From Clostridia bacterium (GTDB lineage: Bacteria > Bacillota > Clostridia > UMGS1883): DNA of 34,348 nucleotides. The translations under genes and the position numbers were made by a program. The first letter of the stretch is position 1; each line of letters starts with the position of its first letter. The DNA lies in the NCBI GenBank assembly GCA_017547445.1, contig JAFYPR010000017.1:1-34348 (forward strand), read 5' to 3'. This document shows, one piece after another, positions 7,767 to 17,304 of this stretch. The notes beneath the pieces are model-generated. The model made no database searches. It worked only from the letters and a program-made list of their open reading frames with translations, and was not told the origin of the DNA.

Positions 7767-7806
7767 AAAAAACTGAACCGGTGAAATTCATCAGTTCAGT
7801 TTTTTT
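7767..7806. terminator. Bidirectional terminator between era and fic
   Basis: AACTGAAC (7771-7778) pairs with GTTCAGTT (7794-7801), extended by AAAA/TTTT on the outside. The stem is flanked by an A-run on the left and a T-run on the right, so it can end the era operon (+) and the fic transcript (-). Confidence 0.9.
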
Positions 7807-8389
7807 ACATTATTTCTTTAAGTATATCCTTGAGCAAAAATACATCACCGGATACAGATCTAATGGTTGCTATCATAAACAAATCTTTATCAACCTTTGA
7901 AAAATCAAGTGTTCTTCCCGCATTTTTAGCAAGCAGGGCAAGGAACAATCTGTGTATTCTTCCGTTACCTTCTCTGAATGGATGCAGATAATTCAATTCA
8001 CAATACAAATTGACTAATTCATCAAGAAAATCTTCATCCGAAAAATCTGCAAGCAACTTTCTCTCATTCAAGCCATCAAATATTCTCTTTCCGCCTTCTT
8101 CGATTTTATCACAAGGGCAAAACGCCGTTCCCTTTTTGCTCATGTTGACGATTCTTATCTCCCCTGCCCAATCATAAATATCAGAGAACACATATTTGTG
8201 CAACATTTTATAATAAGAAAAATCAACATTTTCAAAAGGCAATTCAATGAAAGCCTTTGCTATCAAAGCACTTGTAATACTTTGCTCTAACCTGTTTAAA
8301 ACATCTTCATCTCTTATATCAAACTTATTAATTAAAACAGAGGTGTTCTCATAGCATCCATCCGAAATCGGATCTAATGAATATGCCAT
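7805..8389 (-). CDS. fic: Fic-family AMPylase toxin
   Basis: A 194-residue Fic domain protein. The catalytic motif HPFREGNGRIHR is intact near residues 135-146 (HPFx(D/E)GNGRxxR form), with the flap region upstream (KKGTAFCPCDKI). Such enzymes transfer AMP to target proteins; the VbhT/FicT class hits gyrase and topoisomerase IV. The inhibitory (S/T)xxxE(G/N) motif is not in this protein but in the small gene just upstream, which defines class I Fic. I chose the ATG at 8389 (MAYSLDP) because GAGAGG lies eight bases upstream; an in-frame GTG at 8398 would overlap the antitoxin. The gap from the antitoxin stop is 2 bp, so the pair is translationally coupled. The gene looks more AT-rich than its neighbours, as expected for acquired DNA. 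Confidence 0.93.
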   Translation of the reverse strand: MAYSLDPISDGCYENTSVLINKFDIRDEDVLNRLEQSITSALIAKAFIELPFENVDFSYYKMLHKYVFSDIYDWAGEIRIVNMSKKGTAFCPCDKIEEGGKRIFDGLNERKLLADFSDEDFLDELVNLYCELNYLHPFREGNGRIHRLFLALLAKNAGRTLDFSKVDKDLFMIATIRSVSGDVFLLKDILKEIM

Positions 8390-8391
8390 TT

Positions 8392-8556
8392 TCAACACCT
8401 CTCAAGCATTATTTTTATAAATTCATCCTTGTTAATTTCCCCTGTAACAAAACCCAGACAAATCTCTTTTTGGGCATCCGTAACCTTATACCCCTCTATT
8501 TCAACAGACGCCACCGCGCTGTTCAATGCTTCACTATATATCTTGTCAGCTTGCAT
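8392..8556 (-). CDS. VbhA-type antitoxin to Fic
   Basis: A 54-residue protein. It carries the class I Fic inhibitory motif (S/T)xxxE(G/N) as SVEIEG near residues 16-21, followed by the typical VbhA tail (FVTGEINKDEFIKIML). In known systems this helix enters the Fic active site and its glutamate blocks productive ATP binding. The start is uncertain: an in-frame ATG at 8577 exists, but the promoter at 8581-8609 puts the transcript start near 8574, so translation should begin at 8556, with AAAGGATGTGAG upstream. The stop lies 2 bp before the fic ATG. Confidence 0.85.
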   Translation of the reverse strand: MQADKIYSEALNSAVASVEIEGYKVTDAQKEICLGFVTGEINKDEFIKIMLERC

Positions 8557-8580
8557 TATTAACTCACATCCTTTCATAAT

Positions 8581-8609
8581 ATTATAAAACAAATTTATGA
8601 AAGATGCAA
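8581..8609 (-). promoter_or_regulatory. Sigma-A promoter of the antitoxin-fic operon
   Basis: On the minus strand, -35 TTGCAT (8604-8609), 17-bp spacer, -10 TATAAT (8581-8586). The predicted start is near 8574, leaving a leader of about 18 nt before the antitoxin ATG at 8556. Confidence 0.8.
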
Positions 8610-8648
8610 GAAAAACTCCATACAACGCTTAAATTCGTTAATCTTCTT

Positions 8649-8912
8649 CTATTTGCAAATATCTGCAACAAATTTTATAACCTTTAAATATACTGACCTT
8701 TTTGCTTCCTCAGAAAGCGACGTTGTCCTTGTTATAATATCGCCAAAGAGCAGTTGAAGTGCTCTGTCCTCATCAAAGGGCATATAATCCAGAAGCAACC
8801 TTTCTACAACCTCACTTTTTGAGGCTTTTGTAAGCTTCGAAAGGTATTCAATCTTCTCAATGGCAGCAGGAAACAACTCAACCTCAAATTTTACCGGACA
8901 TGCTTCTTTCAT
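8649..8912 (-). CDS. Small ribbon-helix-helix-like protein, function unknown
   Basis: An 87-residue protein. The segment FEVELFPAAIEKIEYLSKLTKASKSEVVERLLLDYM looks like a short strand followed by two helices with an SKSEVVERLL turn, as in ribbon-helix-helix regulators, but I cannot confirm the family. The C-terminal 35 residues are helical and charged. The start is at 8912, where GGGAGGAATTATT precedes the ATG; an in-frame start at 8957 would fall inside the terminator. There is no room for a promoter between that terminator (8931-8960) and the binding site, so the gene is probably transcribed through the structured RNA upstream. The antitoxin-fic genes begin 92 bp downstream under their own promoter. 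Confidence 0.7.
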   Translation of the reverse strand: MKEACPVKFEVELFPAAIEKIEYLSKLTKASKSEVVERLLLDYMPFDEDRALQLLFGDIITRTTSLSEEAKRSVYLKVIKFVADICK

Positions 8913-8930
8913 AATAATTCCTCCCAAATC

Positions 8931-8960
8931 AAAAAAGGTGTGGGCACGAAGCCGCACACC
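8931..8960 (-). terminator. Rho-independent terminator of the structured RNA
   Basis: On the minus strand: GGTGTG, bulged C, GGC, loop TTCGT, GCC, CACACC, then TTTTTT (8931-8936). This is a textbook intrinsic terminator. It lies just ahead of the GGGAGG binding site of the 87-residue protein. Confidence 0.88.
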
Positions 8961-9088
8961 ATAAAAAGCGCGCTGACTTCATGCTGCAACACATTTACAA
9001 TCCGAACAAGTAGGGATAGGAAATCAGAGGCACGCTTTTTTACATTAGCGTGTCCCTACTTGCCTCAGTTTATCTAAATGTGTTGCAT
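8931..9088 (-). ncRNA. Unassigned structured RNA (rod with internal bubble)
   Basis: About 155 nt on the minus strand, bounded by a consensus promoter and an intrinsic terminator. Stem 1 is 13 bp, 9075-9087 with 8985-8997 (GCAACACATTTA with TAAATGTGTTGC). An internal loop of 12 nt (9063-9074) faces 9 nt (8998-9006). Stem 2 is 10 bp, 9053-9062 with 9007-9016 (CAAGTAGGGA with TCCCTACTTG). It is capped by CACGC/GCGTG (9048-9052 with 9031-9035) plus an asymmetric single-stranded side. No ORF is present. The rod-bubble-rod shape recalls 6S RNA, but it is short for 6S and I see no decisive 6S sequence. It could instead be a cis-acting leader for the downstream gene. Confidence 0.75.
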
Positions 9089-9092
9089 CCTT

Positions 9093-9121
9093 ATTATACC
9101 ACTCTCTTCCTCCTCTTTCAA
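9093..9121 (-). promoter_or_regulatory. Sigma-A promoter of the structured RNA
   Basis: On the minus strand, -35 TTGAAA (9116-9121), 17-bp spacer, -10 TATAAT (9093-9098). The predicted start near 9086-9088 coincides with the 5' edge of stem 1. It is back-to-back with the promoter at 9141-9169. Confidence 0.88.
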
Positions 9122-9140
9122 GATATAATTCCCATTTTCC

Positions 9141-9169
9141 TTGACTTTTTCTTCTTCCGGGTGTATACT
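9141..9169 (+). promoter_or_regulatory. Sigma-A promoter of the zinc operon
   Basis: -35 TTGACT (9141-9146), 17-bp spacer, -10 TATACT (9164-9169), about 40 bp before the first ATG at 9208. I see no clear Zur/Fur inverted repeat here, so an operator cannot be placed. Confidence 0.82.
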
Positions 9170-9207
9170 GATACTTAATCTCATTTTCAAAAAAGGAGGC
9201 AAAAAAA

Positions 9208-9612
9208 ATGCCCGTTCATCATAACACCAGACAAAAGGCTTTAATTTTAGATGTCCTTGAAAAAAACCGTAATCATGTAACCGCCGAGGATGTTATAACA
9301 CTTCTCCATTCTCATGAGGAAAAGGTAGGCAGAGCAACGGTTTACCGTTTTCTCCGTGAATTAGAAGCTGCAGGCAAGGTTAAAAAATATACATTAGGCG
9401 AAAAAAACACCGCCTATTATCAGTACACAGGCGGCGACAGCGACTGTCATGGGCACTATCACTTAATGTGCGATATATGCGGAAAGCTTGAGCATCTTGA
9501 CTCAGCCGTTGCAGAGCAGTTTGCCCAAAGCGCCCGTGAAAGCTACGGCTTTATTATTGATTGTTCAAGAACAGTATTTTACGGCAAGTGCAAAAGCTGC
9601 GCAAAAATGTGA
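9208..9612 (+). CDS. Fur-family transcriptional regulator, probably Zur
   Basis: A 134-residue Fur-family protein: an N-terminal winged helix (TRQKALILDVLEKNRNHVTAED, GRATVYRFLRELEAAGKV) and a C-terminal dimer/metal domain. HGHYH with DICG gives the regulatory site and CDIC plus CKSC give the structural Cys4 zinc site. Its position as first gene of a zinc-type ABC operon suggests Zur (zinc uptake repressor); PerR or Fur activity cannot be excluded from sequence alone. AAGGAGG precedes the ATG. Autoregulation with the downstream transporter is likely. Confidence 0.88.
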   Translation: MPVHHNTRQKALILDVLEKNRNHVTAEDVITLLHSHEEKVGRATVYRFLRELEAAGKVKKYTLGEKNTAYYQYTGGDSDCHGHYHLMCDICGKLEHLDSAVAEQFAQSARESYGFIIDCSRTVFYGKCKSCAKM

Positions 9613-15081: not shown

Positions 15082-17232
15082 TTACCAAGGTCTTCTTCCT
15101 CCGCCAAAACCGCCAAAGCCTCCGTTACCTGTATTTGTAACCGTAGTCTTCATTTCAATTGTGTGGGTTTCCTCACCGATTGTAACCGTATAGGTTTCGC
15201 CCACCTTAAGCTCAGGAGAGGAGAAAACAATACTGTTGCCTGTTTTCAATGTTTTATATCTGTAAATTTCTTCGCCCTTCTGATTTTTTATCACGATATC
15301 GCTTCCTGCGGTGATATTTGCACTTGTAACAAGCTTAAACGAGGGTTGCTTTGAGTCATTGTCAGGACTTTCAGCCATGCCTGATGCTCCCAATGCAATG
15401 AGAGTGCCTCCGTTAACCTTTATGCTTCCGCCTGAGTCCAGTGCGCCGTTGCCGTTATTTGTAGGACCTTCAACAATAATATTTCCGCCCTCAATAATCA
15501 TTCTGCCGTTTGCGTCAAGTCCGTCCCCCTGTGCGTCAACGAAAATTTCACCGCCTGTAATTATAAGGTCGTGACCGGTTTCAGCATCAGGGTTACTGCG
15601 GTTTACTGCATCTCTTCCGCCTGTACCGCCTGCATTTATACCATCGTCGCTGCCCTTTATGTTTATAATACCGCCGTTTATTGTAAGGTTTGCCTTACTC
15701 TCCAGACCTTCACTTGCCTTTAAAATATCAATTCTGCCATTATCAATCACAACATCACCGTGAGCAGAAATCCCCTTGCCCTTTTGGGAGGAAAGTATCA
15801 TTTCACCGCCTGTTATATTTAAAGTACCGCCCGAATGCACGGCATGGTCGGCAGAATTTACCGTGATGCTTCCGCCCTTTATTGCAATATCAGTTTCGCC
15901 CTTAATGCCTTTTGTTGCAGTAGACTCATCCTCTGTGGTTTCCTCGGGCGGTGTCATGTTGCCCCCGGGCTGGAATCCCTCGGGCGGTGTCATGTTGCCC
16001 CCGGGCTGGAATCCCTCGGGCGGTGTCATGTTGCCCCCGGGTTGAAATCCCCCGGGCGGTGTCATGTTGCCCCCGGGTTGAAATCCCTCGGGCGGTGTCA
16101 TATTGCCATTGGGCTGAAGTCCTTCAAAAGACTCTCTGTTCCCTCTTTCGCCTCGGTTTCCCCATTCCATACCTCCGCGACCGCCAAAGCTATCATTGAC
16201 CTCACCTGTAGTTGTTATGTCAATTGCTCCGCCTTCAATTATTACATCCTCTTCTGCCTCAATACCGTCACCGTAGGCAGTAATCTTTATGTCACCGCCC
16301 TGTATTTTTATGGTATTATTTGCATGGATGCCGTCCTTTTTGTCCGAAGAAAGCACCAGAGTGCCCTCTTCTATTTTTATATCGTCATCGCCGGCTAAGG
16401 CATGATGGGCCTTACTTGTAACGCAAAGTGTACCCTCACCCTTTATCTCAATATCATCATTCGAGAAAATCGCCGCCTTTGCATCCAGGGTATACTCTTC
16501 ACCGTCTGTTATGTAGTTTTCATAACCCTTGGAAATTGTTATAAACGACTTATTTGAATTTTCAAAGAAAATAACAGGGTTTGACGGGTTTGACATTTTA
16601 ACCCCTTCAAGACGAAGCTTTACCTTATACTTTGTGTCAACATGTATCATAACGTTATCATTTTCGCCCGTAACAGAAAAATCTCCGCCTTCGGTTATTT
16701 TTATTACATTACCTTCAACTGAAACACCCTTACCTGTAAAGGTCATATCGGTAACATTTACAGCACCGGTATTTTCTTTCCACGCATCCTTATTTTCTTC
16801 AAATTCAGCAGTGGTAATTTCAACACGGCGCTTTTCGTTATTCCAGTTAACCTCTGCCTCTAATCCTTCACTTACCGCACGCACAGGTACGAGCGTTGTA
16901 TCATCTGCAATAAAGGGTGCCACATCCATCTGGACAGCCTCACCGTTTACGTAAAGGGTTTTATCACCTATTGTAAGGCTTATAACCTCCTCCCCGTTTG
17001 TCGCAGTAACCTTCTTTTCTTCGTTATTCCAGCTGACCTGCATGCCAAATGCCTCAAAAATTGCACGCATAGGCACCATAGTACGTCCGTTTTCAATTCT
17101 TGCGGGCACAGGGCAGGCAACCTTTTTCTCATCAAGCTCAATTGTTATTTCATCTGCATAGCTTTCAATGCCAATGCCCATAACAAAAGCTGCCGCCAGA
17201 ATTACGGCGCAAATCTTTTTACCTGATTTCAT
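15082..17232 (-). CDS. Secreted Cthe_2159-like beta-helix carbohydrate-binding protein with copper amine oxidase N-terminal domain
   Basis: A 716-residue exported protein. Signal peptide at 1-27 (KKICAVILAAAFVMGIG, cleavage near SYA-DE). Residues about 30-130 form a copper amine oxidase N-domain-like repeat (RTMVPMRAIFEAFG, TTLVPVRAVSEGLEAEVNW), a domain often found on clostridial surface proteins. The rest is a parallel beta-helix with recurring turns (INGGIINIKGSDDGINAGG, IKGGSITVNSADHAVHSGG) like the pectin-binding Cthe_2159/DUF4353 family. A loop holds five near-identical GFQPGGNMTPP repeats. The C-terminus is Gly-rich (GGFGGFGGG). AGGAGG nine bases before the ATG at 17232 decides the start; an in-frame upstream start adds 18 residues before the signal peptide. 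A cell-surface role in binding plant polysaccharide is inference. Confidence 0.85.
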   Translation of the reverse strand: MKSGKKICAVILAAAFVMGIGIESYADEITIELDEKKVACPVPARIENGRTMVPMRAIFEAFGMQVSWNNEEKKVTATNGEEVISLTIGDKTLYVNGEAVQMDVAPFIADDTTLVPVRAVSEGLEAEVNWNNEKRRVEITTAEFEENKDAWKENTGAVNVTDMTFTGKGVSVEGNVIKITEGGDFSVTGENDNVMIHVDTKYKVKLRLEGVKMSNPSNPVIFFENSNKSFITISKGYENYITDGEEYTLDAKAAIFSNDDIEIKGEGTLCVTSKAHHALAGDDDIKIEEGTLVLSSDKKDGIHANNTIKIQGGDIKITAYGDGIEAEEDVIIEGGAIDITTTGEVNDSFGGRGGMEWGNRGERGNRESFEGLQPNGNMTPPEGFQPGGNMTPPGGFQPGGNMTPPEGFQPGGNMTPPEGFQPGGNMTPPEETTEDESTATKGIKGETDIAIKGGSITVNSADHAVHSGGTLNITGGEMILSSQKGKGISAHGDVVIDNGRIDILKASEGLESKANLTINGGIINIKGSDDGINAGGTGGRDAVNRSNPDAETGHDLIITGGEIFVDAQGDGLDANGRMIIEGGNIIVEGPTNNGNGALDSGGSIKVNGGTLIALGASGMAESPDNDSKQPSFKLVTSANITAGSDIVIKNQKGEEIYRYKTLKTGNSIVFSSPELKVGETYTVTIGEETHTIEMKTTVTNTGNGGFGGFGGGRRPW
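15942..16121. repeat. 33-bp tandem repeat within the beta-helix protein gene
   Basis: About five head-to-tail copies of a 33-bp unit (plus strand core CGGGCGGTGTCATGTTGCC), encoding 11 residues (GFQPGGNMTPP, with E or G following). Outer copies diverge (LQPNGNMTPPE), inner ones are nearly identical, which points to recent copy-number change. The length is a multiple of three, so changes keep frame. Confidence 0.93.
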
Positions 17233-17304
17233 GTAAATCAACCTCCTCATCTTAAGCATACATCCATAATATATAGCTTCTGCCAAGCAAAAGTGAACAT
17301 TTTG

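Follow-up and report, generated by a model that had tools for sequence, protein, structure and literature searches.

A candidate family of riboswitch-like attenuator leaders with two alternative folds in Clostridia

Attenuators of the trp type are leaders of four segments, which form either the pairings 1:2 and 3:4 or the alternative pairing 2:3. Naville and Gautheret (2010, PMC2965389) described mobile attenuators, i.e., related terminator leaders that stand before unrelated genes and were probably spread by mobile DNA; these are recent, highly conserved and IS-borne terminators. On the side of catalogues, Fremin and Bhatt (2021, PMC8040213) computed 3161 RNA candidates from gut bacteria and human microbiomes; the main text of that work describes nothing like the RNA treated here, and its supplementary tables could contain the family. 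Our literature search, which covered the main texts of open-licence papers without their supplements, found no description. The RNA apparently represents a hitherto undescribed family of known kind and unusual design.

The locus lies in a stretch of 34,348 nucleotides from a Clostridia bacterium, which was analysed as a whole and is called the window. A first-pass annotation of the letters alone had placed an unassigned structured RNA with a consensus promoter and an intrinsic terminator at 8931-9121 on the minus strand, and every element it described is present (Table 1). The promoter TTGAAA-17-TATAAT was found complete, with an extended TG in addition. The rod has the two long stems that had been reported, an outer stem P1 of 13 bp (TGCAACACATTTA/TAAATGTGTTGCA) and an inner stem P2 of 10 bp (CAAGTAGGGA/TCCCTACTTG), separated by an internal loop and capped by an apical hairpin. 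It is followed by the GC-rich terminator stem GGTGTG..CACACC and six T. The RNA likewise contains no ORF, as had been stated: an ORF listed at 8649-8957 probably starts at 8912, past the terminator. Two things had been missed. One is an antiterminator of 16-17 bp, which uses the 5' half of the terminator and is preferred over it in the minimum-energy fold of the window RNA; the other is a gene that begins about 20 nt past the T run, its RBS and ATG lying 10 to 20 nt on. Dinucleotide shuffles average -38.0 kcal/mol (sd 3.9), compared to a fold energy of -70.4 kcal/mol for the RNA (z -8.4), and none of 200 shuffles folded as well. Conserved unpaired stretches are limited to AATA and GUAAAAA.

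Table 1. Coordinates of the RNA, its parts and the genes behind it in the window.
Feature	Position	Strand	Basis or remark
Sigma-70 type promoter	9093..9121	-	11/12 consensus positions; extended -10 recurs in homologues
-35 TTGAAA; TG; -10 TATAAT	9121-9116; 9101-9100; 9098-9093	-	spacer 17 nt
Predicted transcription start, first base of P1	9086	-	inferred from homologues
RNA stretch, ending in the terminator with T6	9086-8931	-	156 nt
5' arm X	9037..9086	-	folding and covariation
P1 5' strand; J1/2	9086-9075; 9074-9063	-	parts of X; J1/2 holds the conserved AATA-like stretch
P2 5' strand; P3 5' strand; loop L3	9062-9053; 9052-9047; 9046-9037	-	parts of X
Middle arm Y (A5 run, P3 3' strand, J3/2)	9020..9041	-	pairs with X (P3) or X'
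P2 3' strand; J2/1; P1 3' strand	9016-9007; 9006-8998; 8997-8986 (together 8986..9016)	-	folding and covariation
Alternative hairpin H1 (ATGT-GTTGCA-GCAT)	8981..8994	-	covariation; incompatible with P1, directly adjoins the Y:X' helix
Third arm X' with U5 run	8963..8984	-	pairs with Z (antiterminator) or Y
Terminator hairpin Z:Z' GGTGTGCGGCTTCGTGCCCACACC	8937..8960	-	5' part 8960-8944 doubles as antiterminator 3' half
Terminator T6 run	8931..8936	-	read from sequence
87-aa ribbon-helix-helix-like protein	8649..8912	-	RBS GGGAGGA, ATG at 8912; first gene behind the RNA
VbhA and Fic genes	7805..8625	-	probably share an operon with the RNA-led gene in the window's genome
VbhA antitoxin-like protein	8392-8562	-	VbhA 1.3e-8
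Fic protein	7805-8398	-	Fic 2.2e-16

Known families do not account for the transcript. With Rfam 15 at the gathering score, the window and 20 homologous loci returned tRNAs only; a search for tRNA and tmRNA genes in the window gave none. A search by E-value in 20 further loci gave nothing credible at the RNA positions. The first-pass annotation knew no family that fits, and the Rfam search it had proposed bears this out.

A blastn search of 98 relatives yielded three true homologues, two of them in congeners and the third in a genome of another family; all share the architecture and differ in their stem sequences. A fourth match (L005) was promoter-like only and was rejected. From four sequences, the covariance model A2 was built and run over 391 genomes of the class Clostridia. 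It matched 92 of them at E<=0.1, 82 of these at E<=1e-5 and over the full length. In a phylum-wide sample of 398 genomes, the window's own genome was the sole match at E<=1e-3, so that this sample doubles as a specificity control for the model. With deeper scoring, about 17 copies were counted in one genome, about 10 or more in another and 3 to 5 in congeners; the window's own genome, which is incomplete, holds two. Tandem pairs and one triple occur among the carriers. A few IMG/VR contigs, classed as viral, also carry copies (L174, L194, L196, L199, L201), found by a DNA pattern for P1' together with the covariance model; a terminator-based DNA pattern gave no match in viral contigs, nor did blastn against plasmids and phages. 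Upstream of the copies in L194 and L201 stand ribonucleotide-reductase-like and other phage-like genes. Roughly one in five of the Clostridia genomes sampled thus holds this structured RNA, with up to about 17 copies in each. This abundance, together with the absence from Rfam 15, points to a common, apparently undescribed gene-control system in gut bacteria.

The homologues also locate the start of the transcript. The extended -10 is present in 111 of 122 homologues, at a fixed distance to the RNA. The gap between -10 and P1 is exactly six nt in 106 of 122, and the first base of P1 is G in 118 of 122. Given this spacing and the G at the first P1 base, transcription very probably begins at the first base of P1, i.e., at the foot of the rod, as judged from these sequence constraints.

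The first-pass annotation had named compensatory change in homologues as a check, and such change is massive. Already among four sequences, aligned with plain MAFFT, double changes occur in 15 pairs versus 7.5 in shuffles, with the structure derived from the same sequences. Among 33 sequences, 93.3% of the pair cells are standard and 339 cells are double changes, compared to 96 in shuffles; since the model had guided these alignments, the pair counts lean towards it. Slid controls of the same 33 sequences are paired to only 31-52%, and these shifted controls as well as the MAFFT test speak against model fitting as the whole of the covariation effect. G-U cells outnumber A-C cells by 312 to 20, which implies that the structure is selected in the RNA of the minus strand.

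Beyond the rod, the leader can form two further helices. X' is complementary to the 5' half of the terminator and to Y in the duplex examples inspected, and complementarity of Y and X' over at least 12 bp was found in all 98 scorable members (mean 16.9 bp). The partner region in Y consists of the A5 run, the 3' strand of P3 and a CTCTG-like stretch after it. Over 122 RNAs, cognate arms pair better than non-cognate ones, both for Y:X' (-14.1 versus -9.5 kcal/mol) and for X':Z (-18.1 versus -12.2 kcal/mol). When X' is swapped between members, the proportion that reaches 10 or more Y:X' pairs drops from 0.94 to 0.50. Position-wise tests agree for the first five Y:X' pairs past the A5:U5 run. Since X' resembles parts of X, the Y:X' covariation could be partly indirect. 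The hairpin H1, made of the 3' strand of P1 and the CAA directly behind it, emerged unpredicted from mutual information; 94% of its cells are paired, with 50 double changes versus 12.8 in shuffles. A pseudoknot of Y:X' with P1 intact was dropped: H1 excludes P1 and the linker is short, which favours a nested second fold. The 3' strand is thus predicted to have two alternative partners, the 5' arm X in fold A and X' in fold B.

As long as X is free, the antiterminator and the terminator are close in energy, with a mean difference of 0.4 kcal/mol (sd 3.9), and fold B is weaker than fold A by a mean of 16.5 kcal/mol. Fold B would therefore need something that keeps X away. In ensemble folding, an equilibrium calculation rather than a kinetic one, masking X raises the probability of the terminator from 0.56 to 0.92 and that of Y:X' from 0.00 to 0.83. 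In the window RNA the change is complete, with a terminator probability of about 0 before masking and 0.999 after it. Masking the 12-nt P1 5' strand alone caused no such flip in the same calculation.

The intrinsic terminator directly precedes an RBS and a gene in the window and in most homologues. Counting ORFs of 45 aa or more, we found that 64 of 117 copies are followed within 160 nt by an ORF with a strong RBS, at a median distance of 21 nt past the T run. On the divergent side this holds for 13 out of 117 copies, and the rate at random places is 5.5%. Under looser RBS rules, 80 of 122 copies have an ORF behind them, seven precede another copy and five lie at a contig edge; 30 are without a convincing ORF, and some of them look orphaned. 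By a crude hydrophobicity rule, signal-peptide-like N-termini occur in 28 of 64 downstream products versus 17 of 115 background ORFs. The products include BspA-type leucine-rich repeats, copper amine oxidase N-domains, SLH, CHAP, M23 and single lipoproteins, and many are small proteins without a family. A single pathway that would name a ligand was looked for among the downstream genes, and none was found.

In the window, the 87-aa product matches RHH_1 at E 0.023, short of the curated cut-off, and its orthologue stands behind the orthologous RNA in L006/L008. The Fic protein matches the PADLOC candidate defence models PDC-S04 (E 1.9e-63). Two small proteins recur behind the RNA. One is a cysteine-rich orphan (..GKDCPGNGENGNECCCDECNYMCCC..) in L016, L041, L068 (two copies) and L074, with relatives in L049 and L078, which was once duplicated together with the RNA. 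The other, M.DYKKLYF.LF..V.DVIEE.., was seen in L013, L026 (two), L028, L036, L038 and L071, i.e., in several genera, and has no database family. Elsewhere in the window, a 36-bp tandem repeat of five copies (15942-16122) encodes PPEGFQPGGNMT repeats inside the gene of a large secreted protein (15082-17286, minus strand).

We propose, with a probability of roughly 0.7, that the RNA represents a new family of cis-acting transcription attenuators of Clostridia, i.e., riboswitch-like leader RNAs and a riboswitch candidate. Sequence comparison shows the family itself, its helices including both alternative ones, the lock between promoter and P1, and the location ahead of genes. The description as an unassigned structured RNA with promoter and terminator stands. 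The first-pass annotation had treated the RNA as free-standing, whereas the data speak rather for a 5' leader that acts on the following gene. In the proposed mechanism, transcription would begin with the first base of P1. In fold A, X would pair with the middle strand (P1, P2, P3) and leave X' free; X' would then capture the 5' half of the terminator as an antiterminator, and the polymerase would read into the gene. Read-through would be the default if X:Y forms during RNA synthesis. An effector, be it a metabolite, a protein or an RNA, could hold the nascent 5' arm, such that X is unavailable by the time the middle strand is made. That strand would then pair with X' in fold B, consisting of H1 and of the A5-stem-U5 helix Y:X', which resembles a terminator in its own right; the actual terminator would be released and transcription would stop. 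That both folds arise in vivo, with the ON/OFF sign given here and with an effector acting on the 5' arm as it is made, is our inference. Within this arm, the conserved unpaired AATA is perhaps the best candidate for the contact. A tentative further step would be to see a new class of RNA sensor here, in which the effector captures the nascent 5' arm of a start-site-locked leader before the middle arm is made, the second fold carries two terminator-like hairpins, and the leader controls surface, phage and orphan genes of Clostridia as a dispersed regulon, travelling with them in a cassette of promoter, leader and gene. Starting from this anatomy, one could arrive at a new effector as well as at a regulon of surface and orphan proteins.

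Other readings of the same data have to be weighed against the attenuator. A stand-alone small RNA of about 155 nt that ends in the terminator and acts in trans, with the genes behind it being incidental, would be in agreement with its own promoter, a blunt 5' stem protecting the 5' end, the strong terminator, the multiple copies as known from some sRNA families, and the roughly one quarter of copies that lack a clear downstream ORF. We consider it unlikely, because strong-RBS ORFs follow at a narrow distance and are about ten times as frequent there as at random places and five times as frequent as on the divergent side. It is also hard to see what an RNA acting in trans would do with a conserved antiterminator and a conserved Y:X' pairing. 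The first-pass annotation had seen in the rod-bubble-rod plan a reminiscence of 6S RNA, a look that the fold indeed has. At the gathering score the window has no RF00013 match, and a search of 8850-9250 at E<=10 gave none either. Of 18 carrier genomes examined, 17 have a single 6S gene elsewhere that scores above the cut-off, the exception being the window's own genome, which is only 60% complete. The RNA is also multi-copy, with 3 to 17 copies per genome, and carries an expression platform before a gene. An identity with 6S RNA or a variant of it is therefore practically out of the question.

The unit does appear to move. Together with the following genes, the RNA forms an insertion between era and a fur-znuABC-like locus (window 7805-9121; L236; L003). 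At this site, era and fur are about 110 bp apart and nothing lies between them in one genome (G001), a second (G002) has the RNA and the RHH gene only, and the window's genome (G000) has the RNA, the RHH gene and VbhA-Fic; in a fourth (G003), the closest relative of the RNA lies downstream of era on the opposite strand, with a different gene. Empty, occupied and differently occupied sites imply that promoter, RNA and gene travel as a unit. One could thus argue that the structure serves mobility rather than gene control, as a promoter-leader cassette of mobile elements or a recombination palindrome in DNA. The viral-contig copies, one IS200-type transposase among the neighbours, the many contigs that break near copies and the nearby tRNA and tmRNA genes would fit. 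Such genes are common integration sites of mobile DNA; copies near them were noted in L021, L022, L032, L034 and L081. Yet the excess of G-U over A-C cells argues for single-stranded RNA of this strand and disfavours a DNA palindrome as the primary function. The promoter start is fixed, the antiterminator logic is intact and most copies lie away from transposases, which makes mobility as the purpose of the structure quite improbable. The attenuator remains the best explanation, on a unit that moves.

Among described systems, 6S RNA shares only the rod with an internal bubble, and neither its sequence nor its model matches. The mobile attenuators likewise are related terminator leaders before unrelated genes; here, the sequences have diverged and the structure has been kept in many families, the promoter is fixed and the design has two states. 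Riboswitches with terminator expression platforms are similar in that a 5' leader with conserved unpaired stretches switches between antiterminator and terminator, just before the RBS and sometimes in tandem. The present RNA differs in matching no Rfam class and in preceding mostly surface or orphan proteins instead of one pathway. Like the trp-type attenuators, it would use mutually exclusive pairings of successive segments to choose antiterminator or terminator. It differs from them in that unrelated genes share the RNA in many copies, and no leader peptide is involved: the predicted start is the first base of segment 1, which leaves no room for the RBS of a leader ORF overlapping that segment. 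Moreover, blocking segment 1 is predicted to favour termination, and the response would thus have the opposite sign.
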